A stretch of 47,966 nucleotides of DNA, taken from NCBI GenBank assembly GCA_029263015.1, contig JAJCYI010000019.1, positions 1-47,966 of the forward strand. The letters run 5' to 3'. The translations under genes and the position numbers were made by a program. The DNA is from Saprospiraceae bacterium. Its GTDB lineage: Bacteria; Bacteroidota; Bacteroidia; Chitinophagales; Saprospiraceae. Below, one piece after another: positions 141 through 20,029 of the stretch (positions are counted from its first letter, which is position 1; every line of letters begins with the position of its first letter). The notes under the pieces were generated by a model. The model made no database searches. It saw only the letters and a list, made by a program, of their open reading frames with translations, and was not told the origin of the DNA.

Positions 141-154
141 ATCAACAAACCATT

Positions 155-517
155 TTGCAGTATTCAGCAGAACAAATAATCGCCATTATTGATAGTTGGG
201 AGAAAGAGACCTTGACATTCTTTTATCGGCAAGTTTCCACCAACCTTACCATTTCGCACCGTGTAATTGGAGAAGATAAATCTTTATCTGATAGTGAGAA
301 GCTTGCAGAAATGACCCACCTTAATGAGTTCCACCATAAAATGTTGAGTTGGCTCAATGAAGGATTCGACCAGGTAATAAGTGAAAATGGTGCAGGAAAA
401 TTGATGGGTTTTTTGAAATTCCATGCAGATAAAATGAAAAGAAGAGGTGCAGTTGAATTCCCCGTTGCTTCTGCATTTGAAACCACAAAGAGCAAATTGG
501 CCGGGAAAAACAATTGA
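155..517 (+). CDS. Small hypothetical protein, probably helical and cytosolic
   Basis: A 120-residue protein that I do not recognise. It starts with TTG at 155; there is no in-frame ATG near the front, so the start is uncertain. The chain is rich in charged and amphipathic helix-forming residues (for example SDSEKLAEMTHLNEFHHKML) with no signal peptide or membrane segment. It ends with TGA at 515-517, four bases before the ATG of the SGNH hydrolase gene, which argues for one transcript with 522-1229. No catalytic motif is visible. The family B repeat element ends about 15 bases upstream of the start and may contribute the promoter region. Confidence 0.55.
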   Translation: MQYSAEQIIAIIDSWEKETLTFFYRQVSTNLTISHRVIGEDKSLSDSEKLAEMTHLNEFHHKMLSWLNEGFDQVISENGAGKLMGFLKFHADKMKRRGAVEFPVASAFETTKSKLAGKNN

Positions 518-521
518 AGGG

Positions 522-1229: not shown

Positions 1230-1391
1230 TTTTGTAGCTGCTTTGGAATCAGGAGTCAGGAGTCAAGGGCAGATGAAAAATATGGGAAATGGAATTTTTT
1301 GATTCCAACAGACTTGGCCTGATCTTTCCAAGACAAGAGATTTACTTTTTTAGAAATTTTACCACCCCTGACCCCTAAGCAGAAGCACAAA

Positions 1392-2819: not shown

Positions 2820-2824
2820 AATCA

Positions 2825-3700: not shown

Positions 3701-3791
3701 TTTGGACAACATCCTTTACAAGGCATAGACAGTCAATAACTTAGAAGGTTCAACATTCAGCATTCACCGCTCAACATTCACCATTAAAGGA

Positions 3792-4526
3792 TCACTTCCT
3801 CATCCTTTCCTCCACTCTTTTTGCTGTTTCCCAACGCACCCCGATAATTTCTTCCAAAGCCAGTTTTGTAAGTTCCACATCTGTTTCAGCGATTAATTTA
3901 CGCTCCAAAGTGCCGTTATATGATGCAGAGGCTTGGAGCAAATCCTTCATTTCAAGATCAGCATTTTTAAATTGTTGTTGTGCCAAATTATAAGTGTTGT
4001 TAGAATCCTCTTCGGCCTTTATCCTTACTTTCAATGTTTCAATGGATAGTAAAAATATGTGGTATCGGGTAAGCGTTTCGGCACGGATTTCCATTTTATG
4101 TGTATTGGATTCCATTTCTGCTATTTTAACATCAAACGCTTCAATCTCCTTTTCTTTTTTAGTGTTGGTAAAACTCCCGAGGCTTACTGCTGCTGAAAAT
4201 TGGTACAAAGGGTAGAGCACAAAATTGTTGGGGTCAGGGGCGATGACATTTTCCAAGCTCACCTCATTGATGTTAAACATGAAATTCACATCGTCCATCC
4301 ATTCCGTTCGTTTGAGTTCAACTTCTTTGGCTTCCTTACTTTTTTTATAGTTTAATATTTGTGTCTCTGGACTGTTCAGCCAGGCCAATTGAACCAAATA
4401 TTCTTCAAAGTTGACGGTACGTTGACCTTCTGGAACTACAATCTGATTGAAGTTGATTGTTTGGGCCTGGAGTCCCATCAAAGACACTGTAAAAAAAAAC
4501 GATATGGCTAATATGTTGGATTTCAA
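3792..4526 (-). CDS. Short TolC-like outer membrane protein
   Basis: A 244-residue secreted protein with a signal peptide (MKSNILAISFFFTVSLMGLQ, ending at AQT). The rest is mostly long alpha-helical, heptad-like sequence with the look of TolC-family efflux proteins (a stretch from about residue 40, VNFEEYLVQLAWLNSPETQI, then helices around FDVKIAEMESNTHKMEIRAE and LKVRIKAEEDSNNTYNLAQQ). A full TolC protomer is about 400-480 residues with two repeats; this one carries only about one. It could be a half-size relative or a degenerate copy. It is convergent with the SGNH-like gene and diverges from the NRPS-PKS gene, so its role in product export is possible but unproven. Confidence 0.65.
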   Translation of the reverse strand: MKSNILAISFFFTVSLMGLQAQTINFNQIVVPEGQRTVNFEEYLVQLAWLNSPETQILNYKKSKEAKEVELKRTEWMDDVNFMFNINEVSLENVIAPDPNNFVLYPLYQFSAAVSLGSFTNTKKEKEIEAFDVKIAEMESNTHKMEIRAETLTRYHIFLLSIETLKVRIKAEEDSNNTYNLAQQQFKNADLEMKDLLQASASYNGTLERKLIAETDVELTKLALEEIIGVRWETAKRVEERMRK

Positions 4527-4915
4527 TACTTTGGAATTGTATTGGATCAGTTAATCAAATGGGAATAATTTGAATCGACTGAATTTAAAAACTTAAAGAA
4601 ATCTTGTTTGGATGTTATGTTGAATTATTTCACTTGGGAAATTCAACAATTAGGCCATAGCGTGAGGTAAGGATGGATGTCACAAGAATGCGTAAAACTA
4701 CAATTAAGACTTGAGTTGCATTGGTTTTTCTCGTATTTTTGTAATTCAATTTTTCTCCCCCAGTATTTTGCTGATTTCTGTTTATGCCAATTGGCATCAC
4801 CTCACATTATTCCCTGGTTTAAATTATCACTGGTTTTCCAGAAAGCATTCTTCCACATTGTTTCAAACAAACACTATTAGGCATAGCTGACCACAAGCTA
4901 ATCCGACGATTTTTT
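4527..4915. other. Divergent intergenic region upstream of the megasynthase
   Basis: There are 389 bases between the TolC-like gene (leftward) and the NRPS-PKS gene (rightward). It is AT-rich and holds one good promoter candidate for the megasynthase (4711-4741), which would leave a leader of about 165-170 bases. A 67-codon open frame at 4677-4880 shows no recognisable protein features and starts before that promoter. I see no hairpin typical of an attenuator and no clear operator palindrome. Confidence 0.5.
4711..4741 (+). promoter_or_regulatory. Predicted Bacteroidota-type promoter for the NRPS-PKS gene
   Basis: The -7 box is TATTTTTG at 4734-4741 and matches TAnnTTTG fully. A TTG at 4711-4713 lies 20 bases upstream, the expected spacing for the -33 element, though the consensus TTTG is reduced to cTTG. 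It is the best match in the intergenic region. Prediction from pattern only. Confidence 0.5.
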
Positions 4916-6520
4916 ATGAGCAAACACTTAAACGTACCAAATATTTCCTTTCCGTCAGATTTGGGTCTTCATCAACTATTGAGCCGAGAAGTTGAGCGCA
5001 GCCCTGATCGAGTAGCCTTGGTATTTCAGGATAAGGCTATGACATACAAAGAGTTGGACGCACGAGCCGATAAATTGGCCGCATACCTCATCCACCTTGG
5101 ATTACAAAAAGAAAATTTCGTTGCATTATACCTGGAGCGATCATTTGAAATGATCATTGGTATTTTTGGTATCCTAAAAGCAGGCGGAGCCTATGTGCCG
5201 ATAGATGTGGATTACCCAAAAGAACGCATGGCTTTTATGGTGCAGGATGCAGGGGCCAAAGTCATACTCACCCAAAAACACCTTAAAAATAATTTACCGG
5301 AAACGGCAGCGAAGGTTTTATGTTTGGATGAGCCACTCAAGAAAAAACCCTGTAGTTCTATTTCCACCCAGAAATTTGAACCATCGAACCTCGCCTATAT
5401 GATCTATACTTCTGGCTCAACAGGGAAGCCAAAAGGGGTGATGATCTCCCACGAAAACGTGTGCAACCAATTGCAAGGACAACAAGCCATCGCACCCGAG
5501 CCAATCGGGACAATGATGCTCACTTGTTCCGTCAGTTTCGATGTGTCGGTGCTCACTTTCTTTTGGACATTGTTGCAAGGCGCAACATTGGTTTTGCCAG
5601 AACAAGGAGAGGAGCGGGACATGTCCAAATTGACTGATACTATCTTTAAGAATAAGGTGACCCATATTTTGACCTTGCCTTCCCTTTACACCTTGCTCCT
5701 CGAACAAGGTGCTCCCGAAAAATTGCAGTCACTCGAATTGGTCAATGTTTCCGGCGAAGTTTGTCCTGTTTCGCTTGCCCAAAAACATGAACAGATTATT
5801 CCGAACGGCCAACTCTACAATTTGTATGGCCCGACCGAGGCAACTGTTAATTGCACTTATTTCACATTTCCGAAAGGGTTCAATGCAGAAAAAACACCAA
5901 TCGGGAAACCAATTTTGAATTATGAAATTTTGATCCTCGACAAAAACCAAAAGGAAGTACCCAGAGGTCAAGTTGGCGAAATATATATTGGTGGTACCAA
6001 ACCAGTCGTTGGCCGAGGTTATTGGAACCGCCCCGAATTAACTGATGAACGCTTCAGCCCCCTCCCAGCCTCCAGCCTCCCCCCACCCCCCTCCAAAGGA
6101 GGGGGAGACGTGACATCTCCCCCCCCTTTGGGGGAGGTCGGGAGGGGGCTGCTCTATAAGACCGGTGACCTAGCCCGTTGGATGCCCGATGGAAATATTG
6201 AATTCCTCGGACGCACCGATTTTCAAGTAAAATATCGAGGCTTCAGGATTGAACTCGGAGAGGTGGAAACTGCTATCTCAAACCATCCAGTAATTAAGGA
6301 AACGGTCGTTGTGCTAAGAAATCAACATGAAGTGAACAATCAACAGTTGGTGGCATATTTAACTGCCAATCAAGGATTTAGTGTCACTATTTCTGAGCTT
6401 CGGGATTTTTTGACAGGAACGCTCCCCGAATACATGCTTCCATCCCATTTTGTTTTTTTAGAAAAAATGCCACTTACAACAAATGGCAAATTTGACCGAA
6501 ATGCCTTGCCTGCTCCAACG
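4916..6520 (+). other. Domain: adenylation domain 1 (loading module)
   Basis: Core motifs are visible: A3 YTSGSTGKPKG, A4 FDVSV, A5 NLYGPTEATVN, A7 YKTGDLARWMPDGNIEFLGR, A10 TTNGKFDRNALP with the catalytic Lys525. The Asp at the start of FDVSV (position 235 of the PheA numbering) points to an alpha-amino acid substrate rather than a fatty acid. My by-eye pocket reading is D-V-L-L-N-S-L-V-N-K; I cannot match it to a known substrate. A proline- and glycine-rich repeat insertion lies at 6055-6151, just before the A7 motif. Confidence 0.85.
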
Positions 6521-9500
6521 AATGAAAGGCCTGTTTTGTCGGAAATATTTGAAGGCCCGTTATCAGGTTCGGAGCAGAAGATTGCTGAAAAGTGGGAATC
6601 CATTTTGGGCATTACCCCGATCGGCAGGAACGATAAATTTTTTGAATTGGGAGGCACGTCCATTCAGGCTGCCAAGTTCATTGGAGAGATGATGACAGAA
6701 CTTAAAACTTCTATTTTTATCACCTCCATTTTTGATTTTCCGACGGTGGCAACCTATGCCCGTTTCATCGAAAAAAACTATCCAAATTTTATTACTGATT
6801 TATTTGATAATTCTGTCAAATTAGAATCTCATGAACAGGATGGGAGTGAAAAAGGCTCCCTCCTGGTTTTGTCAAAAAAACAAATTACCGACTTCCCTAA
6901 TTACATTCCAAGCCACCTAACCCAGAACCAAAAACCCAGAACCAAAAACCCAGACTTCCGTCCCATTTTTATCTTGGCACCGCCCCGTTCGGGAACAACC
7001 CTCCTGCGGGTTATGCTGGCAGGGCATCCAGGTTTATTTGCTTGCAATGAGTTGCAACTGCTTCATTTTGAAACACTTGTGGAGAGGGGCGATGCATATT
7101 CAGGCAAGTTTAAGTTGTGGACGGAAGGGTTGATTCGGGCCGTGATGGAATTGAAAGATTGCTCGGCAGAAGAGGCAAATAGCACTCTCCAGGGTTTTGA
7201 GGAAAAGGGCATCTCTACAACAGATGTATTTTTGAAATTGCAAAATTGGATAGGTGACAGGAGTCTTGTTGACAAATCACCAAGTTATCTTTTGGATCCT
7301 TTGGCCCTTGAAAAGGCAATCCAGGATTTTCCAAATGCACGTTTTATCCACCTAGTGCGGCATCCGTACAGCATGGTCAAGTCTTTTGAAAAGTACCATA
7401 TGGATCAGGTGCTTTATCTGGAAAAGCATAATTACAATGCCAGGGAGCTGGGGGAGTTGGTTTGGCTGTGGAGCCACCGCAATGCCGTTGAATTTTTGGA
7501 TAAAATACCGACTCGGCAGCAATGCAGGATCGTTTACGAGGACTTGGTAAAAGAACCCGAAAAAACAATGCAGAGGATGTGCTATCAACTCGGCATCCCG
7601 TTTCACGAAAACCTACTTGACCCGTATCGGGATTTGGATAAAAAAATGACCGATGGCCTGTATTCGGACAGCCGCTCGATGGGGGATACCAATTTTGACA
7701 AAAAGAAAAGGATTGACCCCAAAAAGGCCGAGGATTGGAAAGGGGTTCTGAATAATAATTTTTTATGCAACGAAACTTGGAAAGTAGCAGAAGAATTTGG
7801 TTTTGAGCGTGTTGGCCATCAATCATCAATCAACAATCAGCAATCAACGATCAGGAGCCAGCAATCAACAACCAACAATCAACAATCAAACATCGCCATC
7901 ATCGGCATGTCCTGCCGTTTCCCTGGCGCAAAAAACATCGAAGAATTTTGGCAGAACCTGATCCATGCCAAGGACGTAAGCAGGACGGTAACAGAGGAAG
8001 ACTTGCAGGCAGAAGGTGTAGCTGTTCCAGATAACTATGTTTGGAAAACCTATTCCCTCGACAACCCCTATTGTTTTGATGCTTCCTTTTTTGGTTACCA
8101 TCCTAAAGAAGCTGAACTGACCGATCCGCAGCATCGGGTATTTTTGGAAACGGCCTATCAGGCACTGGAGACTGCAGGTTACAACCCTTATAACTTTGAC
8201 GGAAAAATCGGTGTATTTGGTGGCGTGGCGAGGAATACGTATTTCACAAATAATATCACCTCCAACCCCGAATTGCTCAAAGAAGCTGGCGGATATCAAG
8301 AAATGTTGGCGACAGAAAGCTCCTTTTCCATCAGCCGTGTGGCGTACAAACTCAACTTGCGTGGCCCAGCTGTGAATGTGCAAACCGCTTGCTCCACTGG
8401 TGGGGTGGCGGTACATTTGGCTTGTCAGAGTTTGTTGAGCGGCGACAGCGATATGGTTATTGTTGGTGGTGGAAGAATTCAATCCCCTGTAAATGGGGGT
8501 TACGAATATGTGGAAGGTGGGCCGCTATCGCCCGATGGCAGTTGCCGGGCTTTTGATGCCGATGCCAACGGTATGGTGCAAGGCAACGGAATGGGTATGT
8601 TGGTTTTAAAAAAATTGGACAAAGCGGTGGAAGATGGCGACCATATCTGGTCCGTTATTAAATCTTCAGCAATCAATAACGATGGTTCTGATAAATCTGG
8701 AATTACTGCTCCGAGCCACAAGGGACAATCTGACTGCATTGCCGATGCCATTGAAAAAGCTGGATTGTTGGGAAGCCAAATTGGCTATTTTGAAACACAT
8801 GGCACGGGTACTTTTATTGGTGATCCCATTGAAATTCAGGGACTTACGAATGCTGTTTCCCACACAGCTGTTTCTGGGAAAATTCCAATCGGCAGCGTCA
8901 AAACCAATATCGGACACCTTGATGCAGGGGCCTGCATTGCTGGAATTATTAAGACGGCCTTATCGCTCCATCACGAAATGCTGCCCCCAACCATGCATTT
9001 CAAAAAGCCGAATCCACAAATCGGATTTGATAAAACGGCATTTTACGTCAACGACAAATTACAACCCTGGTTAACTGGTAATGAGCCAAGAAGGGCAGGG
9101 GTTAGCTCGTTTGGATTGGGTGGTACAAATGCACATATTATCTTGGAGGAAGCTCCTGGTTCAGTCGGCACCGGGCAGAGGACAGTCGGCAGTCCGCAGT
9201 TGATGCTGGTTTCTGCGAAAACGGATATGGCGTTGGAATCTGCTGGTGAACAGTTGCGTGATTTTATCAAAAACAATCCTGAAACAAACCTGTCCCACGC
9301 TGCCCAAACACTCGCCACTGGCCGGCCTCATTTTGCTAAAAGGAAGGCATTGGTTTTTGATGGTGAAAACAAATTTATTTCAATACCAACCCCCAAGAAC
9401 CAACCCCCAAGAACCAACCCCCATTTCATTTTCATGTTCCCCGGAGGCGGCGCCCAATATGAAAACATGGCTCGTGACCTGTATGAATCCAATATTTTTT

Positions 9501-12500
9501 TCAAGAAACAATTGGAAAGGTGTTTTGAAATTTTAATTCAAAACCATGATTTAGATATTAAGGACAAAATGTTCCCAAAAGCAACTGATGGCAAAACTCA
9601 AAGTAGTGTTACCAGTGATTTGGAGCGACCGACATATGCACTCGCCTCTTTGTTCACCATTGAATATTCCCTGGCCAAACTCTGGCAGCATTGGGGCATT
9701 CGGCCCGCTGAAATGATCGGTCACTCAATGGGGGAATACGCGGCAGCCTGCCTTTCTGGTGTGATGAGTTTGGAGGCTGCACTTGGTTTGGTGGCGGTGC
9801 GGGGAAAACTGTTTGAAACGTTGGAGGGGGATGGTTGTATGCTGAGCATTGCAACAACGGAGCGGCAGTTGGAACCTGTTTTGGATGTTGAGCACACCAT
9901 TTCAGTCATCAATAAAGAGGACAGTTTGGTGGTGAGTAGCACACGGGCCGGAATCGAACGATTGCAAAATAAATTGAACGCATTAGGTATTGAGAATACC
10001 AAAATACACATTTCGGTGCCAGCTCATTCTCCGCTGATCGAACCCATCTTGAATGACTTTAGGGAATATTTGCAAAGTGTTGATTTACAAGAACCTACGA
10101 TTCCTTTTGTTTCAAATGTTACAGGTACTTGGATCAAGCCAACAGAAGCCACTGACCCTGAATATTGGATTCGCCATATCCGCCAAAAAGTCCGTTTTGC
10201 TGATGGCCTGAATACACTGATAAATGTAGAAGATCAATCGTTAACATCTTCCAATTCACCATTCACCATTCACCATTCACCATTAAAAAAGAATCGTATC
10301 TTCCTCGAAGTGGGACCCGGCCAGACGCTCAGTACGTTTGCCCGGGCCTTTCCCACTCTGAATGGGGAAAAGCGATTGGTCCTGGCCTCTGTTCGGCATC
10401 CAAAGGAAGTGACCAATGATGCGACATTTATTTATAAGTCAGTCGGTAAGCTATGGGTAAATGGCGTAGATGTTCAGTGGGATAATTTTTATGAAAACCA
10501 AAATTTTAAGAGCATACCTCTTCCAACTTACCCATTTGAAAAGAAAAAATATTTTGTAAAACCACGATTTGAAATAACAGTACCCCAACCGAATGAACCT
10601 CCCTCAGCTTTGCCTTTGAAAACACCTCTGTTATTAGAAAACACACCTAACCCTACTATGAAATCCATAACACGTATCCCCATTTTAATCTCAGAAATAA
10701 AACAGTCTTTGCACGAACTGAGTGGAATGGAACCAGCAGATATGGATGCAGAGGCCACGTTTTTGGAGCTTGGTTTCGACAGTCTTTTCCTGAGCCAAGC
10801 AGTTATTAAGTTCAATTATAAATTCAAGTTGAAATTGAGTTTCAGGATGTTGTTTGAGGAGGCATCCACCATTGCAGCACTGGCCGAATATGTGGACAAT
10901 GAAATACCTGAAGATATGTTTGTCCCTGAGCCAATAACATCACCAGCTCCTGCTATAGGAATTTCAGGTACGCCTTTAACTGATTCATTATCAACGAATT
11001 CGCAGAGACAGGAAAATGTGGCTCAACCAGGAAATGATCAGTTGGAAAACTTGATTCAACAACAATTATCGATCATGCAGCAACAACTGAACTTGCTGCG
11101 TGGAGAGGTAATTCAAAATACCCAAAGCCCCCTTCACCCCCTTTCTAAAAAGGTTGTTTCAAGTCCTGTTAACACTTCAAATGCTGACAGGGCCAATGGT
11201 ACTGCTGGCCAAAAAGAAGTTGAGATCGAACGGAAGACGAAAGGCGTCACCGCCAAAATGGGGAATTACAAAAAGATCGGTAGTGACAATGAACTGACCA
11301 AGCAGCAACAGAAAGGGTTAAGGGATTTCATAGAACGGTATAATGAACTGACCAAAGGATCAAAAGACCTGGCGCAGCGTCACCGCCAATTCTACGCCGA
11401 TCCACGAAGTGTAACAGGGTTTAGCAAGTTATGGAAAGAAATCTGTTACCAAATCGCCCATGAAAAATCGAAAGGTTCAAAAATATGGGACGTGGACGGC
11501 AACGAATACATTGACTATGTAATGAGCTATGGCGTGGCCCTTTTTGGGCATATGCCAGACTTTGTTGAAAAGGCGGTGACGGCTGCTATTCAACGCGGCA
11601 ACAGCATTGATCTGCTGCCGCCAGAAGCCACGGAGATTGCCAGGATTATTTGTAAAATAACTGGTTATGACCGGGTCACTTTGGCAAATACAGGAACAGA
11701 GGCGGTGCTCGGTGCTGTGCGTACTGCCCGGACTGCAACAGGCAAAGACCGCATCGCCGTTTTTGATACAGACTACCACGGCATGATCGATCAGTTCATG
11801 GTACGGGGCATCAATTTGAATGGTAAAAACAAAACCCTGCCCGGCTCGCCCGGCATTCCTAACTTCCTTGTTGAAAACACCTTGACACTTGATTACGATG
11901 ACCCAGCCGTTTTACAAAAACTTGAAAACGAAATCTCAGATTTGGCAGCGGTTGTGATCGAACCTGTGCAGGCCCAGAACCCTCATTGGCAACATAAGGA
12001 ACTGATTCAAAAAATCAGACAACTCACTGAAAAACATGATGTTGCGTTGATATTTGATGAGATAATCAATGGCTTTCGGATGCACCAACGGGGCGCTCAG
12101 GGCTGGTATGGGGTGGATGCCGATATTTCAGCTTACGGCAAAGGGATCAGTGGTGGATTTCCCATAGCAGCTATTGCAGGCAAAGCCAAATACATGGATG
12201 CATTTGACGGCGGAGTTTGGAATTATGGAGATGAATCTTCACCCGATGGGGTCATTACCTATTTTGCCAGCACGTTTATCAAAAACCCGATCAGCGTGGC
12301 GGCTGGACATGCTGCTCTGATAGAAATTGAGCGGCTGGGGCCTGCTTTACAAGAAGGGTTGAATGAAAAAACGCTGCAATTTGCGAAGCGAATAAAAGAA
12401 ATATTCTTGCAGACCAAAGCTCCGCTGATGATCCAATGTGTTTCTTCCTTTTTTATGATAAAAAATGCAGATGGCAGTCCGTTGACTCGCCTGTTTCATT

Positions 12501-15500
12501 ACTTCTTGAGAGCACGGGGCGTGAATGTCAGGGAGCGGCCCTGTTTCATTTCCACTGCTCACACAGCGGAGGATTTTGAAAAAACATACAAGGCATTCGA
12601 GCTGGCAATTCAGGATATGTTTGAGGCAAACCTGTTGCAGCCATGGATAGGGGAAGATTTGAACGTGATTGTGGAGACGGCAGACGGCGGACGGCAGACA
12701 GCGGATGAATTTCAAGAACCAAAAACCAAAAACCCTGCCTCGCCGGCAGGCAGGCAAGAACCCCGAACCAAAAACCAAATCCCTCTTACCGAAGGGCAAC
12801 AGGAGATTTACCTTTCCAGTCAATTCACGCCAGAGGCATCGAAAGCTTACAACATCGCAACTGAAATAAAGCTGGAAGGAGCGTTTGATGTGGAACGAAT
12901 GAAGGCGGCCTTGCAAGCCCTTGTGAATAGACATGAAGCATTGCGGACGGTGATGAATGAGGATGGCATGACCCAGACTGTTTTAGGTGAAATGCAAATA
13001 GAAATTCCCGTAATTGATTTGAGTACAAAGGCTCTTTCTTCTGGGGGCAGTTCGCTGCAACAACTTTACATCGAGGAAGCTGAATATCTTTTTAATCTTA
13101 TTAAAGGCCCACTCGTCCGTTTCAAAATAGTGAAACTGGGAGACGAGAAACACCTCGTTTTCATCAATGTACACCATATTATATGTGATGGCTGGTCACT
13201 GGGGATTTTGACGCGTGAATTGGGTGAAATGTATGGTTCAAATGCCACAAACATTCCCAGTCTCCAAAATTTGGAAAGCCTCTCTGATTCCAAACAACTT
13301 GGTGAGTATGCCATAGAACAAGCTGATTTACAACAACTTGACGTTTACAAGGATAATGAAAAATACTGGTTAGAACAGTTCAGCGACGGTGTGCCTGTCC
13401 TGAACCTGCCAACTGATTTTCATCGACCACCGGTGCGGACATTTCCAGGTGCAGTTGAGAAGATTTCGTTTGAACCAGCTTTCACGGTGCGGCTTAAAAA
13501 AACTGCAGCCACGAATGGTTCGACTTTTTATGTGTTCATGTTGGCAGCTTACCAGGCTTACCTCAGCCGCATTACGGGACAGGACGATTTTGTGGTTGGC
13601 ATTGCAGCGGCAGGACATAATATGCAAGGTAATCAAAACTTGGTGGCACATGCCATCGGACTCCTTCCTGTGCGCACCAAATTGGAAAGAGCAGCCACTT
13701 TCAAGGACTACCTAAAAACAGTTCGGGGCAATGTGCTGGATGCTTTTGATCACCAGCAATTTACCTTTGGTTCACTGGTGAAGCAGTTAAAATTGGAACG
13801 CTTCGTCAACCGCAATGCTGTTGTGAATGTGGCTTTCAACCTAGACAGCCCACTGGATGATTTGGCTTATGGGAAATTGCAGGCAAGCACCAAGGCCATC
13901 CCTCGACATTATGAAACATTCGACAGTTTCATCAACCTCAAACCGGTTGGCGAAGGATTTGATTTTGAATGGAATTTCAACACCGATCTTTTCAAGAAAG
14001 AATCCATTCAACTTCGTTTGCAAGAATTCAAGAACTTTTTGCAGGACATATTGGAGGATGCGGGAAAACCAATAACCGGGTTGCGCCTTTTACCAGATTT
14101 TGAGAGCCAACAACTTTATTCCTTTGGACAAGGTGATAAAGTTGACTTCCCGCTCCACCAATGTCTGCATGAATTGTTTGAGGAACAGGCCGAACGTACC
14201 CCTGATAACATTGCCGTGCAAATGACTGATGGTAGTCAGTTGACCTATCACCAACTAAATGAAAAAGCCAATACGCTGGCTGGCGTCCTGATTGAAAAAG
14301 GTCTTGAGTCAGGGACTTTTGTTGGCCTTTGTGTGGAGCGGTCATTGGATACGTTGGTGAGCATTTATGCGATTTTGAAAGCGGGTGGTGCATACGTCCC
14401 CATTGATCCAAGAAACCCAAAAGAACGGATCCGTTTTACCCTTGAAGATGCTGGTTGTCAAATACTTGTGACTCAAAAAATACTAGTGGGGTCCTTGCCA
14501 AATTTCGATGGTGTAGTTGTTTTTCCCACCGAAACCCTAAAACAAAATAAGCAGCCACTCAAAACTCATCACTCAAAACTCATCACTCAAAACTCCCCCG
14601 CCTACGTCATTTATACTTCCGGTTCAACGGGAAGACCAAAAGGCGTTGTCGTACGACATGAGAATGCCGTGAATACATTATTTGCAATAAACCGTCTGCT
14701 GAAAATGTCTGAGGGTGACACTGTTTATTCTGTGTCTTCGATGTCGTTCGATATGTCAATCCCTGATTATTTTCTCACCCTCATGACTGGGGCAACTTTG
14801 ATCTTGGCCGATGAAACGACCAAAAAAGACGGTTTTGCGCTGCGGGATTCTCTCGAAAAAGTTCAACCAACTTTCATGCAGGCTACTCCAACCACTTGGA
14901 AGATATTGATGCTTTCTGGTTGGCAGGGCGATCCTGGCCTGACAGCAATTGCAGGAGGCGAAGGTTTCCCAAAATTACTCGCTGCTCAAATGGTCGAGTG
15001 CTGCAAATCAGTATGGAATGGCTATGGGCCAACGGAGACAACCATTTATGCAACCTATCAAAAAGTGACACCTAAACATTTGCAGTCTTGTCCTGGTGAA
15101 TTTGTCGCCATAGGTTCACCGATAGCAAATACCGAAATGTATGTTTTGGATAAAAATGGATTGCAAGTTCCAATCGGTATCCCCGGTGAACTTTACATTG
15201 GCGGTAGCGGCATTTCAGATGGATATTTGAACCGACCAAAATTGAACAAGGAGCGTTTCAGCCCCCTCCCAACCTCCCCCAAAGGAGGAGGAGTTGCTGC
15301 CACGTCTCCCCCTCTTTTGGAGGGGGTCGGGGGGAGGCTTTACAAAACCGGTGACCTCGTCCGCTATTTGTCAACCGGCGAAATTGAGTTCCTTGGAAGA
15401 ATAGACAATCAGGTAAAAATCAGAGGATATCGCATTGAATTGGGAGAGATTGAAGAAGTCATCTTGCAAAACCAACAGGTGGATCAAGCGGTGGTCAATA

Positions 15501-16828
15501 TTTTTGAGGACAAAACTGGAAATCCTCAATTGGCAGCTTACGTTGTTGGTCAAAATAGCGTGGCACAGGGACTTAAATCTTTTTTGAAAACAAGATTGCC
15601 GGGTTATATGATCCCTGCTTTTTTTGTTGAAATGGAGGAGCTGCCGATGAGCACATCGTTGAAAGTTGATCGCAAGGCATTGCCAAAACCTGATACCTCC
15701 ATTTTACAAACCGAAAAAATTGAACTACCTGTCACAAAGGGAGAAGTATTGTTGACCGATATTTGGAAAGACCTATTGGGCGTGAAAGAAGTCAGCGTAA
15801 AGGACGACTTTTTTGAATTGGGTGGCCATTCTTTGGCAGCAGTACAATTGATGTCAAGAATTAAGGAAGCGACGGGTAAAAAATTGCCGTTGACCACACT
15901 TTTCCAGCATTCAACAATCCAAACATTGGCTGGCCAGCTCAATGGTTTTAATAAGCCAATTAAGAACGGTATTTCCAGGAAAGGTGAACGAGAAGGGCCA
16001 TTCACATCACTCATTTGTATCAGGAAGGGAGGAGATAAAACACCGTTATACCTTGTGCATGGAGGAGGGTTGCATGTCCTTTTTTATCAAAATTTGGCAA
16101 AGTACCTTGATGAGGACCAACCCATTTATGCACTCCAGGCCGTCGGCTTGAACGAGGGCGAAGAGTCTTTGGATAACATCGAAGACATGGCGGCGCATTA
16201 TATCCGGGAGATCAAAATTCAAAACCCTGGTGGCCCCTATTGCTTGGCTGGCTACTCCCTTGGCGGATTGATTGCCTGGGAAATGGCCTCCCAGTTGAAA
16301 GCAGAGAATAAAGACGTTCCGTTGCTTGCCCTTTTTGATGCTGTGGCAAAATACGAGTGGGCCGGAAATGGAAGGAATAGCGATTTGAAAAAGAAATTTA
16401 AGAAACTTGGTTTCAACCTTTCATTAATGATGAAAGATCCTGCTGGGACGTTGGGTTACAAGTCTTCTGTTTTGAAAATGCAATTCCAGCACATGAAAGG
16501 AAAACTCACCATGGCCTACCGGAACAACCAAACTGATAAAATTGAGGAAGGGTTTATCCCATATGGGAAAGAGGTGTACGAGAAAAGTTTGGAAGCATAC
16601 GATAAATACGAATTGAAGCCTCTGGACATTCATGTGGACTTGTTCAAAGCAAAAGAACAGATGTTTTATCTTCACGATCCCGAAAATTATGGATGGGATC
16701 AATTCGCCCATGATGGCCTGACCATCCATTTGATCGAAGGTAATCATTTGACCCTTTTTGACGACCCTCATGGGAAGGAAGTGGCCGAAGCACTGAAAGG
16801 AAGACTTAAGGAAGTTATGAGTTTTTGA
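4916..16828 (+). CDS. Hybrid NRPS-PKS megasynthase with sulfotransferase and aminotransferase domains
   Basis: A 3970-residue complete assembly line in one gene. Domain order with approximate residues: A1 1-535, T1 550-622 (phosphopantetheine Ser582 in GGTS), sulfotransferase 682-965, KS 993-1415 (Cys1159, His1295, His1334), AT 1507-1828 (Ser1604 in GHSMGE), ACP 1922-1995 (Ser1956 in GFDSL), Gln-rich coil 2042-2068, class III aminotransferase 2122-2580 (Lys2409), C 2622-3045 (HHIICDGWS, 2753-2761), A2 3077-3590, T2 3600-3675 (Ser3639 in GGHSL), TE 3700-3960 (Ser3781 in GYSLGG, His3944). It has no N-terminal C domain, so A1-T1 is a loading module; no ketoreductase is present. The expected course is: load an acid, extend once with a malonyl-type unit, transaminate the beta-keto group, couple to one amino acid, release. 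All active-site residues checked look intact. Linkers are full of in-frame repeats. The PPTase gene follows 206 bases downstream. The product is unknown. Confidence 0.96.
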   Translation: MSKHLNVPNISFPSDLGLHQLLSREVERSPDRVALVFQDKAMTYKELDARADKLAAYLIHLGLQKENFVALYLERSFEMIIGIFGILKAGGAYVPIDVDYPKERMAFMVQDAGAKVILTQKHLKNNLPETAAKVLCLDEPLKKKPCSSISTQKFEPSNLAYMIYTSGSTGKPKGVMISHENVCNQLQGQQAIAPEPIGTMMLTCSVSFDVSVLTFFWTLLQGATLVLPEQGEERDMSKLTDTIFKNKVTHILTLPSLYTLLLEQGAPEKLQSLELVNVSGEVCPVSLAQKHEQIIPNGQLYNLYGPTEATVNCTYFTFPKGFNAEKTPIGKPILNYEILILDKNQKEVPRGQVGEIYIGGTKPVVGRGYWNRPELTDERFSPLPASSLPPPPSKGGGDVTSPPPLGEVGRGLLYKTGDLARWMPDGNIEFLGRTDFQVKYRGFRIELGEVETAISNHPVIKETVVVLRNQHEVNNQQLVAYLTANQGFSVTISELRDFLTGTLPEYMLPSHFVFLEKMPLTTNGKFDRNALPAPTNERPVLSEIFEGPLSGSEQKIAEKWESILGITPIGRNDKFFELGGTSIQAAKFIGEMMTELKTSIFITSIFDFPTVATYARFIEKNYPNFITDLFDNSVKLESHEQDGSEKGSLLVLSKKQITDFPNYIPSHLTQNQKPRTKNPDFRPIFILAPPRSGTTLLRVMLAGHPGLFACNELQLLHFETLVERGDAYSGKFKLWTEGLIRAVMELKDCSAEEANSTLQGFEEKGISTTDVFLKLQNWIGDRSLVDKSPSYLLDPLALEKAIQDFPNARFIHLVRHPYSMVKSFEKYHMDQVLYLEKHNYNARELGELVWLWSHRNAVEFLDKIPTRQQCRIVYEDLVKEPEKTMQRMCYQLGIPFHENLLDPYRDLDKKMTDGLYSDSRSMGDTNFDKKKRIDPKKAEDWKGVLNNNFLCNETWKVAEEFGFERVGHQSSINNQQSTIRSQQSTTNNQQSNIAIIGMSCRFPGAKNIEEFWQNLIHAKDVSRTVTEEDLQAEGVAVPDNYVWKTYSLDNPYCFDASFFGYHPKEAELTDPQHRVFLETAYQALETAGYNPYNFDGKIGVFGGVARNTYFTNNITSNPELLKEAGGYQEMLATESSFSISRVAYKLNLRGPAVNVQTACSTGGVAVHLACQSLLSGDSDMVIVGGGRIQSPVNGGYEYVEGGPLSPDGSCRAFDADANGMVQGNGMGMLVLKKLDKAVEDGDHIWSVIKSSAINNDGSDKSGITAPSHKGQSDCIADAIEKAGLLGSQIGYFETHGTGTFIGDPIEIQGLTNAVSHTAVSGKIPIGSVKTNIGHLDAGACIAGIIKTALSLHHEMLPPTMHFKKPNPQIGFDKTAFYVNDKLQPWLTGNEPRRAGVSSFGLGGTNAHIILEEAPGSVGTGQRTVGSPQLMLVSAKTDMALESAGEQLRDFIKNNPETNLSHAAQTLATGRPHFAKRKALVFDGENKFISIPTPKNQPPRTNPHFIFMFPGGGAQYENMARDLYESNIFFKKQLERCFEILIQNHDLDIKDKMFPKATDGKTQSSVTSDLERPTYALASLFTIEYSLAKLWQHWGIRPAEMIGHSMGEYAAACLSGVMSLEAALGLVAVRGKLFETLEGDGCMLSIATTERQLEPVLDVEHTISVINKEDSLVVSSTRAGIERLQNKLNALGIENTKIHISVPAHSPLIEPILNDFREYLQSVDLQEPTIPFVSNVTGTWIKPTEATDPEYWIRHIRQKVRFADGLNTLINVEDQSLTSSNSPFTIHHSPLKKNRIFLEVGPGQTLSTFARAFPTLNGEKRLVLASVRHPKEVTNDATFIYKSVGKLWVNGVDVQWDNFYENQNFKSIPLPTYPFEKKKYFVKPRFEITVPQPNEPPSALPLKTPLLLENTPNPTMKSITRIPILISEIKQSLHELSGMEPADMDAEATFLELGFDSLFLSQAVIKFNYKFKLKLSFRMLFEEASTIAALAEYVDNEIPEDMFVPEPITSPAPAIGISGTPLTDSLSTNSQRQENVAQPGNDQLENLIQQQLSIMQQQLNLLRGEVIQNTQSPLHPLSKKVVSSPVNTSNADRANGTAGQKEVEIERKTKGVTAKMGNYKKIGSDNELTKQQQKGLRDFIERYNELTKGSKDLAQRHRQFYADPRSVTGFSKLWKEICYQIAHEKSKGSKIWDVDGNEYIDYVMSYGVALFGHMPDFVEKAVTAAIQRGNSIDLLPPEATEIARIICKITGYDRVTLANTGTEAVLGAVRTARTATGKDRIAVFDTDYHGMIDQFMVRGINLNGKNKTLPGSPGIPNFLVENTLTLDYDDPAVLQKLENEISDLAAVVIEPVQAQNPHWQHKELIQKIRQLTEKHDVALIFDEIINGFRMHQRGAQGWYGVDADISAYGKGISGGFPIAAIAGKAKYMDAFDGGVWNYGDESSPDGVITYFASTFIKNPISVAAGHAALIEIERLGPALQEGLNEKTLQFAKRIKEIFLQTKAPLMIQCVSSFFMIKNADGSPLTRLFHYFLRARGVNVRERPCFISTAHTAEDFEKTYKAFELAIQDMFEANLLQPWIGEDLNVIVETADGGRQTADEFQEPKTKNPASPAGRQEPRTKNQIPLTEGQQEIYLSSQFTPEASKAYNIATEIKLEGAFDVERMKAALQALVNRHEALRTVMNEDGMTQTVLGEMQIEIPVIDLSTKALSSGGSSLQQLYIEEAEYLFNLIKGPLVRFKIVKLGDEKHLVFINVHHIICDGWSLGILTRELGEMYGSNATNIPSLQNLESLSDSKQLGEYAIEQADLQQLDVYKDNEKYWLEQFSDGVPVLNLPTDFHRPPVRTFPGAVEKISFEPAFTVRLKKTAATNGSTFYVFMLAAYQAYLSRITGQDDFVVGIAAAGHNMQGNQNLVAHAIGLLPVRTKLERAATFKDYLKTVRGNVLDAFDHQQFTFGSLVKQLKLERFVNRNAVVNVAFNLDSPLDDLAYGKLQASTKAIPRHYETFDSFINLKPVGEGFDFEWNFNTDLFKKESIQLRLQEFKNFLQDILEDAGKPITGLRLLPDFESQQLYSFGQGDKVDFPLHQCLHELFEEQAERTPDNIAVQMTDGSQLTYHQLNEKANTLAGVLIEKGLESGTFVGLCVERSLDTLVSIYAILKAGGAYVPIDPRNPKERIRFTLEDAGCQILVTQKILVGSLPNFDGVVVFPTETLKQNKQPLKTHHSKLITQNSPAYVIYTSGSTGRPKGVVVRHENAVNTLFAINRLLKMSEGDTVYSVSSMSFDMSIPDYFLTLMTGATLILADETTKKDGFALRDSLEKVQPTFMQATPTTWKILMLSGWQGDPGLTAIAGGEGFPKLLAAQMVECCKSVWNGYGPTETTIYATYQKVTPKHLQSCPGEFVAIGSPIANTEMYVLDKNGLQVPIGIPGELYIGGSGISDGYLNRPKLNKERFSPLPTSPKGGGVAATSPPLLEGVGGRLYKTGDLVRYLSTGEIEFLGRIDNQVKIRGYRIELGEIEEVILQNQQVDQAVVNIFEDKTGNPQLAAYVVGQNSVAQGLKSFLKTRLPGYMIPAFFVEMEELPMSTSLKVDRKALPKPDTSILQTEKIELPVTKGEVLLTDIWKDLLGVKEVSVKDDFFELGGHSLAAVQLMSRIKEATGKKLPLTTLFQHSTIQTLAGQLNGFNKPIKNGISRKGEREGPFTSLICIRKGGDKTPLYLVHGGGLHVLFYQNLAKYLDEDQPIYALQAVGLNEGEESLDNIEDMAAHYIREIKIQNPGGPYCLAGYSLGGLIAWEMASQLKAENKDVPLLALFDAVAKYEWAGNGRNSDLKKKFKKLGFNLSLMMKDPAGTLGYKSSVLKMQFQHMKGKLTMAYRNNQTDKIEEGFIPYGKEVYEKSLEAYDKYELKPLDIHVDLFKAKEQMFYLHDPENYGWDQFAHDGLTIHLIEGNHLTLFDDPHGKEVAEALKGRLKEVMSF
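6055..6151. repeat. GC-rich palindromic repeat inserted in frame in A1
   Basis: A 97-base insertion with outer arms AGCCCCCTCCC and GGGAGGGGGCT and inner palindromes around CCCTCCAAAGGAGGG and CCCTTTGGGGG. It is translated as a Pro/Gly/Ser-rich loop (FSPLPASSLPPPP to LGEVGRGLL) between the A6 and A7 core motifs of the adenylation domain, a place where A domains normally have a few residues. The copy at 15260-15339 occupies the same place in A2. Confidence 0.85.
6921..6954. repeat. In-frame AACCAAAAACCC repeat in the T1-sulfotransferase linker
   Basis: Two to three copies of CCAGAACCAAAAACC in tandem, translated as NQKPRTKNP. The same words occur between genes at 22686-22728 and 36749-36772, and elsewhere in this gene at 12719-12778. 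Confidence 0.7.
6959..7810 (+). other. Domain: sulfotransferase embedded between T1 and KS
   Basis: About 285 residues with the two PAPS-binding signatures of sulfotransferases: the 5'-phosphosulfate loop PPRSGTT (residues 689-695) and the 3'-phosphate element RHPYSMVKS (from Arg815). It resembles the Sulfotransfer_3 type of domain. It is bordered by repeat-rich linkers (6921-6954 and 7819-7890). In the curacin synthase CurM a sulfotransferase activates a beta-hydroxy acyl chain before decarboxylation, but there it sits next to the TE; here it follows the loading carrier protein, so it more likely sulfates the starter unit. That last step is inference. Confidence 0.85.
7819..7890. repeat. In-frame CAATCAACAATCA repeat in the sulfotransferase-KS linker
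   Basis: Imperfect tandem units of AATCAACAATCAGC type, translated as a Gln/Ser/Asn-rich linker (residues about 968-991). It begins right after the sulfotransferase fold and stops one residue before the KS start, IAIIGM. Confidence 0.75.
9386..9422. repeat. In-frame CAAGAACCAACCCC repeat before the AT domain
   Basis: Three imperfect units of CCAAGAACCAACCC, translated as PKNQPPRTNP, directly before the AT start FMFPGGGAQ. Confidence 0.65.
10253..10284. repeat. In-frame ATTCACC tandem repeat inside the AT region
   Basis: Four to five units of ATTCACC, translated as NSPFTIHHSPL, shortly before FLEVGPG. The intergenic stretch at 3750-3786 holds the same words (CATTCACCATTAAA). Confidence 0.65.
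11279..12655 (+). other. Domain: PLP-dependent class III aminotransferase (AMT)
   Basis: A glutamate-1-semialdehyde-aminomutase-like domain of about 460 residues. The PLP-binding Asp2381 lies in IFDEIINGFR and the Schiff-base Lys2409 in AYGKGISGGFP. The same fusion, ACP-AMT-C, occurs in iturin/mycosubtilin synthases and in microcystin McyE, where the AMT converts a beta-ketoacyl thioester to a beta-aminoacyl thioester. The preceding Gln-rich coil at residues 2042-2068 is a likely docking or spacer helix. Confidence 0.9.
12674..12781. repeat. Composite repeat in the aminotransferase-C linker
   Basis: Three repeat types follow each other: CAGACGGCGGACGG units (12675-12703), AACCAAAAACC units (12717-12734 and 12764-12778), and between them the palindrome CCTGCCT...AGGCAGG (12734-12754). 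All are translated in frame into a linker of about 36 residues. The palindrome has the same 7-base arms as the one nested in the MITE at 31076-31095. Confidence 0.75.
14556..14595. repeat. In-frame CACTCAAAACTCAT repeat inside A2
   Basis: Three units of CACTCAAAACTCAT, translated as HSKLITHHSKLITQN in approximate register, shortly before the A3 motif of A2. The intergenic repeat at 16948-17009 uses the same CACTCAA/AACTCAA words. Confidence 0.65.
15260..15339. repeat. GC-rich palindromic repeat inserted in frame in A2
   Basis: An 80-base relative of the repeat at 6055-6151, with the left arm CAGCCCCCTCCC, the inner stretches CCTCCCCCAAAGGAGG and CCCCCTCTTTTGGAGGGGG, and the right arm GGGGGGAGGCTT. 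It is read in the same frame (FSPLPTSPKGGG... SPPLLEGVGGRL) and sits just before YKTGDL, exactly as in A1. The two copies differ in length and detail, so they are not a recent perfect duplication. Confidence 0.85.
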
Positions 16829-16947
16829 GTTCCTGAGTTTTTAAGATATGAGTGGATATGCATTGGAAACTGGAGTTGTTTTAATCTGTGTGGAGATCGA
16901 GTAATTCCCGTACCTATAAAAGATCAATTTTTTTCAGGTGCAAAATA

Positions 16948-17009
16948 CCCATCACCCATCACCCATCACTCAAGAACTCAAAAACTCAGGAACTCAAGAA
17001 CTCAAAACT
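16948..17009. repeat. Intergenic CCATCA / AACTCAAG tandem repeat upstream of the PPTase gene
   Basis: Three ATCACCC units are followed by about five AACTCAAGA/AACTCAAAA units in the 206-base gap between the megasynthase and the PPTase gene. It is not translated in any plausible gene. Similar words lie in frame in the megasynthase (14556-14595). I see no clear terminator in this gap. Confidence 0.65.
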
Positions 17010-17034
17010 AATTTTTTACCAAACACTATAAACA

Positions 17035-17814
17035 ATGGAAAAACACTTAAAAGAGGCGATCCAGATCTTGGATCTCAGCGCCCATCCAGAATTAGAAGAT
17101 GTGCGGATTTACCTCATGGACGTAACTTGTTTGCCTCCAGAGGTATTAGCTTATTTGACTTCAACTTTATGTTTGAAAGAAAAAAAGAAAGCTGTGCGGT
17201 TCAGGAAAGAATTGGACAGGCGGGTGTATGTGGCTGGGAGGGGAATGTTGCGGGTACTGGTCGGTGAATGCCTGAATCTTTATCCCCCTGAAATTGAAAT
17301 TGCTGAAGAGCGATTTGGTAAACCTTATTTGAAGGGTTTTCGGGATGCTTTTCAGTTCAATATTTCCAATTCCCACCAATATGTGGCAATAGCCATCCAC
17401 CCAGGCGATCAGCAGATTGGGGTTGACTTGGAATATATTAATACGAAACTTGATTATTGGGAAATTGCATCCCATTATTTCACGAGCAACGAATGCGACA
17501 ATATCTTCACGCACCGCGATTTCTATTGTAATTGGACAAAAAAAGAGGCGCTGCTGAAAGCAACTGGCGTCGGCTTGATAGATGAGCTGAACACGTTGGA
17601 TTTTTCTAAGGAAGTCAACTTCGTGGATACAAGTGATGAACGGCTTCGTTTATTCAAAAATAGAAAATATACATTATATACCCTTGGTAATGAAGAAGTT
17701 ATTGTCACTCTTGGAATCCGGGAGCAATTGGCTCGACCTGACTATTTCGACATGGAAGTGGTCGAAGAAGACCCACATGCTGCTGCTGCTGTCAGCCATG
17801 TTTTTCTGGTGTGA
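17035..17814 (+). CDS. 4'-phosphopantetheinyl transferase, Sfp type
   Basis: A 259-residue enzyme that moves 4'-phosphopantetheine from CoA to the carrier-protein serines, here most likely Ser582, Ser1956 and Ser3639 of the megasynthase encoded upstream. Family motifs are clear: FNISNSHQYVAIAI, IGVDLEYI with Mg-binding Asp131 and Glu133, and WTKKEALLKATG from Trp167 with Glu171 and Lys175. Length fits the Sfp/Gsp group. The last 38 bases overlap the start of the next gene in another frame, and the C-terminal tail there is a short Ala run. The start ATG follows an AAACAATGG context typical of the region. Co-transcription with the megasynthase is likely but the 206-base gap could hold a separate promoter. 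Confidence 0.93.
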   Translation: MEKHLKEAIQILDLSAHPELEDVRIYLMDVTCLPPEVLAYLTSTLCLKEKKKAVRFRKELDRRVYVAGRGMLRVLVGECLNLYPPEIEIAEERFGKPYLKGFRDAFQFNISNSHQYVAIAIHPGDQQIGVDLEYINTKLDYWEIASHYFTSNECDNIFTHRDFYCNWTKKEALLKATGVGLIDELNTLDFSKEVNFVDTSDERLRLFKNRKYTLYTLGNEEVIVTLGIREQLARPDYFDMEVVEEDPHAAAAVSHVFLV

Positions 17815-20029
17815 AAATACCTTTTCTCAAGACCCGTTGAATAGATCGGTACAGGTTAGCATGGGGATTCAGGAAAATCCTATGCGATTCAATTTTACAT
17901 GGGATTGGGACTGGTCGTCGGGGGAATACACCATATATCGGAAGTCGCCTGAAGAACCGAACTGGGGCGACCCGATTGCGATTTTGCCATGGGGGGAGAT
18001 TTCCTTTACCGATGAAAACGTTGAACAGGGAATTCCCTATGAATATGCATTTTACAAAAAGGAGTTTGATACAATTGTCACAACAATAGATGTTCCCGTC
18101 AATGAAACCTTGATTTTTTCTTTTGAAAATGTTTTTGGCGATGGCCTTTGCTGCAACTTCGGATTTGGGTGGTATGAAGCTGAAGTTTGTGGTGAAATAG
18201 TTCTTCAAGGTAGTGATTTTGGATTTATCCAATCCGATACTTTCACCGTTTGCGATTTTGGAAACGAAACCGAACAGCTCACCCTTTCCATCCTGCCCGA
18301 CATGATGGTCAATAACTCCTGGTGGTCATTGGAAGATACTGCAGGGGTTCAAATAGCCAGTTCCGGCACACCCGGAACTTGGCTCGATGACCGTCCAAAA
18401 TACGGTTACATTCTCGCTGGCAAAGCATTGCCAAGAACTGAATACAGGGGCTCCATTTTAATATTGGTCGATGATGTTTATTCGGTCCCTTTGCAGGATG
18501 AAATAGCTGGGTTAGAAAGAGATTTGGTTGCAGATGGGTGGCGGGTCATCCGAGAGGAGGTGAATAGGGAATACCCGATGAGTCAGGTTAAAGCATTGAT
18601 TATCAATGTTTATAAAGCGGTTGATGATTTGAAAATGGTTTATTTGCTGGGGCACATACCTGTCCCATATTCCGGTAGCATTTACCCAGATGGCCATGTC
18701 GAAAATCATTGGGGGGCTTGGCCAGCAGATGTTTATTATGGGGATTTGGATGGAGTATTTTCTGATACCCTGGTTAACAACATTTCTGCTCAATTTGCTA
18801 GCAACCACAATATTCCTGGTGATGGGAAATTTGACCAATCAGCCATTTCTTCCTCAGTGGAACTCGCCATTGGAAGGGTTGATTTTTACAACATGCCAGC
18901 TTTCGGCATTGGTGATGTTGAACTGACCCGCCGTTATCTTGAAAAAGCACACCTTTTCAAAACTGGCCAGCGTGAAGCAACCCGGAGAGCATTGGTTGAT
19001 GACAATTTGAATATTGTCCTGGGCAGTCCAGCGGCCAGCGGTTGGAGAAATTTTGCACCCATGTTTACGGCTGACAGTGTGCAGGCACTCGACTATTTTT
19101 CAACGATGAAAAATGAAAGTTATCTTTGGTCTTATGGGTGCGGAAGTGGCACCCATCAGAGTGCTAACGGGATCGGGACAACCACGGATTTTGTAAACGA
19201 CACGTTAAAAAATATCTTTACGATGTTGCTGGGTAGCCAGTTTGGTGATTGGGATAATAAAGACAATTTCCTCCGTGCCCCGCTTGCATCCTCGTCCTGG
19301 ACGCTTGCCAGTTGCTGGGCAGGCAACCCGCCTTTTGTTTTTCACAAAATGGCTATGGGAGAGCCAATTGGTTATAGTCTTTTGGCCACACAGAATGCTT
19401 CATCAGTAGATTATTATCCTGGGCCCGCACTTATCCACACATCTTTAATGGGTGATCCTACATTGCGCTTGCACCCAGTTAAAATACCCTCTGATCTTAA
19501 TTTGCATGCAACCGGAGAATCAGTGGAATTAAATTGGCAAGCTCCTGAAAATGAGGATGTTATTGGCTATTCTGTTTACAGGAAAGATTCGTTATCGTAC
19601 GAGTTTGTCTTATTAAATGCGAATCCTGCATTGAATACTTTTTACATAGATATACAACCTCCAGAAGGCACACATACTTATATGGTACGAGCATTGAAAT
19701 TGGAAACTTCCGGGAGTGGGACTTATTTCAATTTGAGTTTAGGGGTGATAGATACGGTTTCCTATCAATACATTTCTGGAGTAGAAAATGAAGATGCAAG
19801 CAGCCTTGTCTCGGTATTTCCCAATCCTTCGAGCGGTGAGGTGTTTTTGGATTTTCCTATTGAATGGGGTGTCTTAAAGATTGAAGTGTTTGATGTGGAA
19901 GGGAAAGTTGTTCTGGAAAGGAAAATGACAAGTGGAATCTTGGACTTAAGTAATTTTGGTAGGGGAGTATATTTTATAAGGGTTCATGCTAAGAAAAACG
20001 AAATATCCAAATTTATTAAGTTGGATTAA
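17777..20029 (+). CDS. Secreted gingipain-fold-like protein with Fn3 and T9SS type A sorting domain
   Basis: A 750-residue protein if started at ATG 17777; upstream in-frame ATGs exist (17633, 17692) but only this one gives a compact signal peptide (MLLLLSAMFFWCENTFSQ). The middle resembles peptidase C25: KALIINVYKAVDD, VYLLGHIPVP, ELAIGRVDFYNMP and LLGSQFGDWDNKDNFLRAPL. The usual catalytic contexts look changed: SYGCGSGTH stands where gingipains have a His in a GHG motif, and LGSQFGDW stands near where the catalytic Cys is expected, so proteolysis is doubtful. Next is an Fn3-like domain (PSDLNLHATGESVELNWQAP) and a C-terminal sorting domain starting VSVFPNPSSGEV and ending ISKFIKLD, which targets it to the T9SS. 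The overlap with the PPTase gene is 38 bases. Confidence 0.8.
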   Translation: MLLLLSAMFFWCENTFSQDPLNRSVQVSMGIQENPMRFNFTWDWDWSSGEYTIYRKSPEEPNWGDPIAILPWGEISFTDENVEQGIPYEYAFYKKEFDTIVTTIDVPVNETLIFSFENVFGDGLCCNFGFGWYEAEVCGEIVLQGSDFGFIQSDTFTVCDFGNETEQLTLSILPDMMVNNSWWSLEDTAGVQIASSGTPGTWLDDRPKYGYILAGKALPRTEYRGSILILVDDVYSVPLQDEIAGLERDLVADGWRVIREEVNREYPMSQVKALIINVYKAVDDLKMVYLLGHIPVPYSGSIYPDGHVENHWGAWPADVYYGDLDGVFSDTLVNNISAQFASNHNIPGDGKFDQSAISSSVELAIGRVDFYNMPAFGIGDVELTRRYLEKAHLFKTGQREATRRALVDDNLNIVLGSPAASGWRNFAPMFTADSVQALDYFSTMKNESYLWSYGCGSGTHQSANGIGTTTDFVNDTLKNIFTMLLGSQFGDWDNKDNFLRAPLASSSWTLASCWAGNPPFVFHKMAMGEPIGYSLLATQNASSVDYYPGPALIHTSLMGDPTLRLHPVKIPSDLNLHATGESVELNWQAPENEDVIGYSVYRKDSLSYEFVLLNANPALNTFYIDIQPPEGTHTYMVRALKLETSGSGTYFNLSLGVIDTVSYQYISGVENEDASSLVSVFPNPSSGEVFLDFPIEWGVLKIEVFDVEGKVVLERKMTSGILDLSNFGRGVYFIRVHAKKNEISKFIKLD

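Follow-up and report, generated by a model that had tools for sequence, protein, structure and literature searches.

Aminotransferase (AMT) domains between an ACP and a condensation (C) domain are familiar from mycosubtilin MycA, and the iturin synthases and microcystin McyE have ACP-AMT-C modules of the same kind. In those lines a fatty or phenyl unit begins the chain, and for that reason an AMT of the MycA/McyE type yields a simple beta-amino acid. Sulfotransferase (ST) domains are known from other assembly lines. In CurM and the olefin synthases (OLS), KS, AT, KR and ACP come first, ST-TE last, and the product is an alkene. The substrate of their ST is a beta-hydroxyacyl chain bound to a carrier (PMC3903477). 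An ST inside an NRPS loading module has already been reported from the cyanobacterial aeruginosins, e.g. suomilide and varlaxin, whose AerB has an OMT-FkbH-PCP-ST initiation and retains the sulfate, as 2-O-methylglyceric acid 3-O-sulfate (PMC10143770). In sulfazecin biosynthesis (SulM/SulN) a carrier-bound amino acid is sulfonated by an ST that works in trans, on nitrogen, in the last module; the TE there uses Cys (PMC11298585).

The synthase described here resembles AerB in that an ST comes immediately behind the initial carrier of the NRPS line, but where FkbH loads glycerate in AerB and a C domain follows, we find an adenylation (A) domain that would load an amino acid, and KS-AT-ACP-AMT next. 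The likeness to sulfazecin lies in the predicted sulfonation of a carrier-bound amino acid. With MycA it shares the order of a beta-amino module, a MycA-like AMT between ACP and C, but in place of a fatty or aryl acyl-ligase starter it has an A domain that appears from its sequence to be of the amino-acid-activating type.

Domain organisation and surroundings of the synthase gene

The window, by which we mean the whole stretch of 47,966 nucleotides analysed, is contig C19 of a 6.95-Mb Saprospiraceae genome in 245 contigs. It contains one intact ORF of 3970 aa, with an ATG start and zero internal stops, that encodes the domain order A-T-ST-KS-AT-ACP-AMT-C-A-T-TE. The features of the locus are:

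3792..4526, - strand: outer-membrane efflux (OEP) protein, upstream and divergent; beside the synthase in close relatives
4916..16828, + strand: whole NRPS-PKS gene, 3970 aa (ORF and Pfam)
4958..6520, + strand: A1, starter adenylation, code DVLLNSLVNK (Pfam; code by alignment; His-type clade in the A-domain tree)
6560..6781, + strand: T1 carrier, GGTSI, Ser582 (Pfam and motif)
6941..7795, + strand: ST, PAPS-dependent-type sulfotransferase domain (Pfam; nearest solved chains 4gox and 4gbm, the CurM ST)
7871..9325, + strand: KS, ketosynthase including C-terminal extension (Pfam and motif)
9386..10315, + strand: AT, acyltransferase, GHSMG (Pfam and motif)
10676..10900, + strand: ACP, GFDSL, Ser1956 (Pfam and motif)
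11291..12625, + strand: AMT, class-III PLP aminotransferase (Pfam; nearest solved chain MycA AMT 6kfm)
12752..14125, + strand: C, condensation domain, HHIICDG; no second one detected in the genome (Pfam and motif)
14216..15700, + strand: A2, adenylation, code DMPQIGGIYK; groups with A domains of the Gly type (alignment and tree)
15716..15955, + strand: T2 carrier, GGHSL, Ser3639 (Pfam and motif)
16016..16819, + strand: TE, thioesterase, serine nucleophile motif GYSLG (Pfam and motif)
17035..17814, + strand: 4'-phosphopantetheinyl transferase (PPTase), adjoining the synthase downstream, as in many relatives

The original prediction of eleven domains with intact active-site motifs in one protein withstood a profile search, which might have shown a named domain to be absent or inactive. 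AMP-binding (two stretches), PP-binding (three stretches), Sulfotransfer_3, ketoacyl-synt N and C, Acyl_transf_1, Aminotran_3, Condensation and Thioesterase all score above the curated Pfam cut-offs. The Pfam table gives the best stretch per family only; where the repeated A and T domains stand in the line was read from a motif scan, which recovered two A3/A5/A7/A8/A10 sets, the carrier serines in GGTSI, GFDSL and GGHSL, the KS motifs TACS, ETHGTGT and KTNIGH, GHSMG in the AT, RSGTT in the ST, YGKG in the AMT, HHIICDG in the C domain and GYSLG in the TE. With A, T and C domains and KS, AT and ACP in one line, motifs intact, the protein is a type I hybrid NRPS-PKS. By the usual AT motif rules, the AT would be malonyl-type. 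A TE ends the line, as predicted; the sole condensation-domain match in the genome is the one inside this ORF, and the PPTase gene lies next door as had been stated.

Among the best 80 of 238 relatives, a PPTase homologue is found downstream in at least 17 of 41 loci with ST and KS fused, and an OEP homologue, which may serve in export, upstream in at least 10 of the 41; these are lower bounds, because many loci end before that place. No oxygenase or hydroxylase family, and no extra cyclase family, was recognised among the window ORFs scanned with Pfam, of which eight matched no family. The lack of a hydroxylase family among these neighbours favours a starter that already carries its hydroxyl. 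An APS kinase is present in the genome, away from the locus.

The ORF contains 7- or 14-base tandem repeats (6919-6954, 7820-7889, 9385-9423, 10254-10284, 12675-12705 and 14556-14595), several of them in interdomain linkers. In 38 fused ORFs there are 63 such arrays, and 26 of them fall outside the domain calls, in linkers that account for about 14% of the length. A change in copy number would move the reading frame. We considered phase variation through these heptamer repeats and rejected it: in L055, the one interrupted relative checked, where A-T and ST-KS-... lie in two different frames, there is no repeat at the break.

Fused and split relatives

With the ST domain as query (E <= 1e-60), 48 of 398 sampled Saprospiraceae genomes match, in 16 of 112 genera, as do 13 of the 14 genomes of the window's own genus, its own genome being included in both counts. 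A separate search of 100 genomes gave 19 matches at 1e-10, own included, one of which (G040) is a weak match to a short separate gene. Against plasmids, megablast with window positions 1-20000 returned no matches, and tblastn with the window ST returned 13 records, the best at 40%.

A scan of species genomes yielded 238 relatives, of which the best 80 were taken, corresponding to 79 loci (L043-L121), many of them titled Saprospiraceae MAGs. Within these best 80, ST and KS share a single ORF in 41 of the 79 loci, and 29 of the 41 have exactly the eleven-domain order. As for the other fused loci, seven end at a contig or locus edge, L050, L051 and L085 have an additional C-A and then the contig or locus end, L053 has one extra carrier, and L055 is the interrupted relative described above. 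Two members of the genus, followed through to the end of the gene, have an additional C-A-T ahead of the TE, giving about 5020 aa. The 29 further loci exclude chance as the source of the order, and since it is seen again in them we rejected an annotation artefact or chimera.

Eight loci among the best 80 relatives (L061, L069, L072, L086, L089, L091, L093 and L111) have a split form, A-T-ST followed by KS-AT-ACP-AMT-C-A-T. The A-T-ST and KS-AT portions are in neighbouring ORFs, the second of which goes on with T-AMT-C in seven of the eight and further with A-T in six. The record titles name Gammaproteobacteria, Trueperaceae, Gemmatimonadetes, Pedosphaera, Nitriliruptorales and Anaerolineae. 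All eight are MAG contigs, some short, so misbinning of single contigs is possible. The ST domains of the fused and split lines make up a single clade (FastTree 0.987; UFBoot 97) that also takes in L071, where no KS gene adjoins the A-T-ST gene; the KS domains of the two forms likewise make up one clade (FastTree 0.923). Distances for ST and KS are correlated over 49 loci, window included (r 0.81), and none of 2000 permutations (0/2000) gave a value as high. The gammaproteobacterial MAG L069 has, beside its split line, a gene with formyltransferase, A, luciferase-like monooxygenase and T domains (3302-7975) and a separate sulfotransferase gene (18695-19594).

The original prediction that no described pathway has this exact order survives in part. 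We found no account of the order in the open literature on STs in NRPS-PKS, on Saprospiraceae NRPS and on specificity codes, a search whose scope ended short of most subscription papers, supplements and MIBiG; the order is not a single oddity, however, being conserved within the family and having split MAG relatives.

The sulfotransferase and the fate of its sulfate

The solved chains nearest to the window ST are 4gox (E 6.5e-60), titled 'Polyketide synthase' and presumably the Ols ST, and the CurM ST 4gbm (E 9.5e-59). In an alignment of 93 ST domains, R691, G693, K787, Y791, R815, S823, E847 and D924 are present in 100%, window included, and E712, also present in the window, in 98%. By sequence relationship and conserved core residues, the window ST is a member, at the domain level, of the CurM/OLS ST family. 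Its identity to the STs of five OLS-type loci is 37-44%, and to those of four cyanobacterial loci of AerB-similar layout (L155-L158) 45-46%.

Membership in this family does not extend to the pathway. The window ST follows a loading A-T and precedes the KS, no KR was found with Pfam, and in a wider ST tree the OLS STs are one branch (UFBoot 97) with the window ST outside it; we therefore rejected an alkene-forming OLS/CurM pathway. Many NRPS modules of the forms C-A-T-ST-C and A-T-ST-TE, and four cyanobacterial T-ST-C-A-T loci, also fall in this wider tree; the OLS STs and the window ST are inside one larger, mostly NRPS-embedded ST tree (all roots are midpoint roots and do not give the direction of descent). 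Among the cyanobacterial loci, L156 has an FkbM-type methyltransferase ahead of T-ST, which fits the suomilide/varlaxin AerB layout, and L155 is without one; Pfam made no FkbH call in either, these being the two of the four that were scanned.

Genes for sulfate activation accompany some of these STs: an ATP-sulfurylase/APS-kinase gene in L096, an adenylyl-sulfate kinase in L023 and cysND in L022. The last locus, on Agrobacterium vitis plasmid pRvVAT039a, has an A-T-ST-TE gene (16057-19701) and also an ectB-annotated aminotransferase, a methyltransferase and a 2OG-Fe dioxygenase. L090 (ORF from 6530) and L098 (ORF from 3686) each have a C-A-T-ST-TE module, one with a Thr code and the other with a homoserine-like code; by analogy with OLS, the Thr-coded one might end in an enamide.

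The window ST probably acts on the T1-bound starter. Because it groups with the CurM/OLS and NRPS-embedded STs, the sulfate may be a leaving group and not a decoration, displaced by the alpha-amine or another nitrogen to give an aziridine or small N-ring, or lost by elimination to leave a dehydroamino acyl unit, either ahead of KS extension or following it. The STs of the nearest solved relatives serve to create a leaving group (PMC3903477), and in azinomycin a neighbouring amine displaces sulfate as the aziridine closes (PMC9570651). In CurM/OLS, however, the loss is tied to an adjacent TE, and here a KS follows the ST; AerB PCP-ST keeps its sulfate (PMC10143770), and the scan of the window neighbours recognised no added cyclase. 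We regard the leaving-group reading as doubtful, though a possibility to be taken seriously. A broader form of it, in which carrier-coupled NRPS STs across many bacterial groups turn amino-acid hydroxyls into sulfate leaving groups, the window is a KS-extended branch whose seryl-O-sulfate would pass by aziridine formation or elimination to a vicinal-diamine dipeptide with an aziridine or dehydro group, and olefin synthase is an offshoot, seems to us unlikely. On the simple question of whether sulfate is retained or lost, our judgement, which was not computed, puts retention as slightly likelier.

The ST might instead sulfonate an amine, as the trans-acting SulN does before closure of the sulfazecin beta-lactam, where N-sulfonation of a carrier-bound residue is established (PMC11298585). 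The Kordia relative L105 bears on this reading, as PALP and ornithine-cyclodeaminase-like genes there (5290-7234) adjoin two T-ST-C modules and possibly supply diaminopropionate. Genes of these two types are, by analogy, of a kind that could make that compound. Against this, the nearest solved relatives of the ST sulfonate oxygen (PMC3903477), and the window TE has a serine motif, GYSLG, versus the cysteine of SulM and ObiF. We consider N-sulfonation highly improbable, and a monobactam-type line was rejected for the same want of a Cys nucleophile.

Starter residue and proposed product

That an amino-acid-type A domain starts the chain is borne out by the alignment, in which A1 keeps the equivalents of Asp235 and Lys517, as amino-acid-activating domains do. 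All codes were read by alignment. The A1 code DVLLNSLVNK, which was not found in the open-literature texts searched, is identical in 16 of the 36 fused loci with a readable A1 (L043-L121, the best 80 of 238 relatives); 3 of the 36 are one letter off and 17 have DGLLSAQVGK or near variants. It agrees with Ser codes at 5/9 positions; of 70 distinct codes, 9 come up to that level, and only some of those nine are Ser codes. In the A-domain tree, A1 of the fused lines clusters with DSALIAEVWK (His) domains (support 1.0) and apart from the split-line Ser A domains, suggesting that A1 was replaced or has diverged. With agreement at only 5/9 positions and a different clade, we rejected a firm assignment to serine, and the identity of the starter in the window line is uncertain.

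A 2025 survey assigns DSALIAEVWK to His and says that the beta-OH form can also be accepted (PMC12283262), and the grouping raises the possibility that A1 loads histidine, beta-hydroxyhistidine or another His-clade residue, with the ST acting on a trans-installed beta-hydroxyl or on a ring nitrogen. DSALIAEVWK also occurs in L071 and in two ST modules from Pseudoalteromonas, and the fused relative L074 has DGVLSAEVCK, 5/9 to it. The window code itself matches at 3/9 with the Glu322 equivalent lost, and no hydroxylase for the trans step was recognised among the scanned neighbours, so we think this reading quite improbable.

Three things speak for a hydroxylated starter: the split relatives, the ST and the lack of a recognised hydroxylase nearby. 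Of six split lines with a readable A1, L069, L072 and L111 read as Ser and L091 as Thr, and L061 and L086 are Ser-like, at 8/9 and 6/9 to a Ser code. An enrichment of Ser, Thr or Hse codes before an ST is seen only with the split lines counted, in 11/29 cases versus 4/40 among other A domains (p 0.007); without them the figures are 6/22 versus 4/34 (p 0.13). This count covers L043-L121 and L022, excluding fused ST-KS proteins, L055, L115 and codes starting GG, TG or NT or with two gaps; L024-L042 were outside it because they repeat genomes met again later. In several ST modules the preceding A domain has a Val, Met, Asp, Gly or Arg-like code. A hydroxylase scan of ST loci without a Ser/Thr/Hse A domain gave one TauD (L102) in 10 proteins from six loci, many contigs being truncated. 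For A2, the window domain (code DMPQIGGIYK) clusters with Gly-type domains from split lines (support 0.984); the six readable split A2 codes are Gly-type in L069, L072 and L086 and not Gly-type in L089, L091 and L111.

The AMT was predicted to be of the mycosubtilin type, and its nearest solved chain is indeed the MycA AMT (331 bits, versus 181 for the best non-MycA chain). We tentatively propose, at a little under an even chance, a pathway that sulfonates the T1 starter on oxygen, lengthens it by a malonyl unit, turns it by transamination into a 3,4-diamino acid and couples this to a glycine-like residue before release. The PPTase would arm the three carriers, and A1 would charge T1 with an alpha-amino acid that bears a hydroxyl, serine or something close to it being the simplest candidate. 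The ST would then move sulfonate from PAPS onto the side-chain hydroxyl; this proposed substrate, a beta-hydroxyacyl thioester, matches that of the CurM/OLS STs. The KS and AT would add one malonyl unit to give a 4-amino-3-oxo acyl-ACP, whose 3-keto group the AMT would convert to an amine. Since the starter is itself an amino acid, we predict a 3,4-diamino (vicinal diamine) unit; the MycA-type AMT thus upholds only part of the earlier expectation of a beta-amino acid, the plain form giving way to the diamine. The C domain would couple this unit to the residue chosen by A2, glycine or one like it, and the TE would free the acid or close a small ring. A dipeptide-like, possibly sulfated product is what we infer and not what we observe.

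Sulfated or ring-closed vicinal-diamine dipeptides would, to our knowledge, be a new product class, and a single gene with its PPTase is a convenient expression target. In the synthase, an ST in an NRPS loading module is combined within a single conserved protein with a starter of the amino-acid kind, a KS and an aminotransferase. Judged by its sequence and recurrence, the eleven-domain synthase is a conserved assembly line in part of the Saprospiraceae, a family met here almost only as MAGs.
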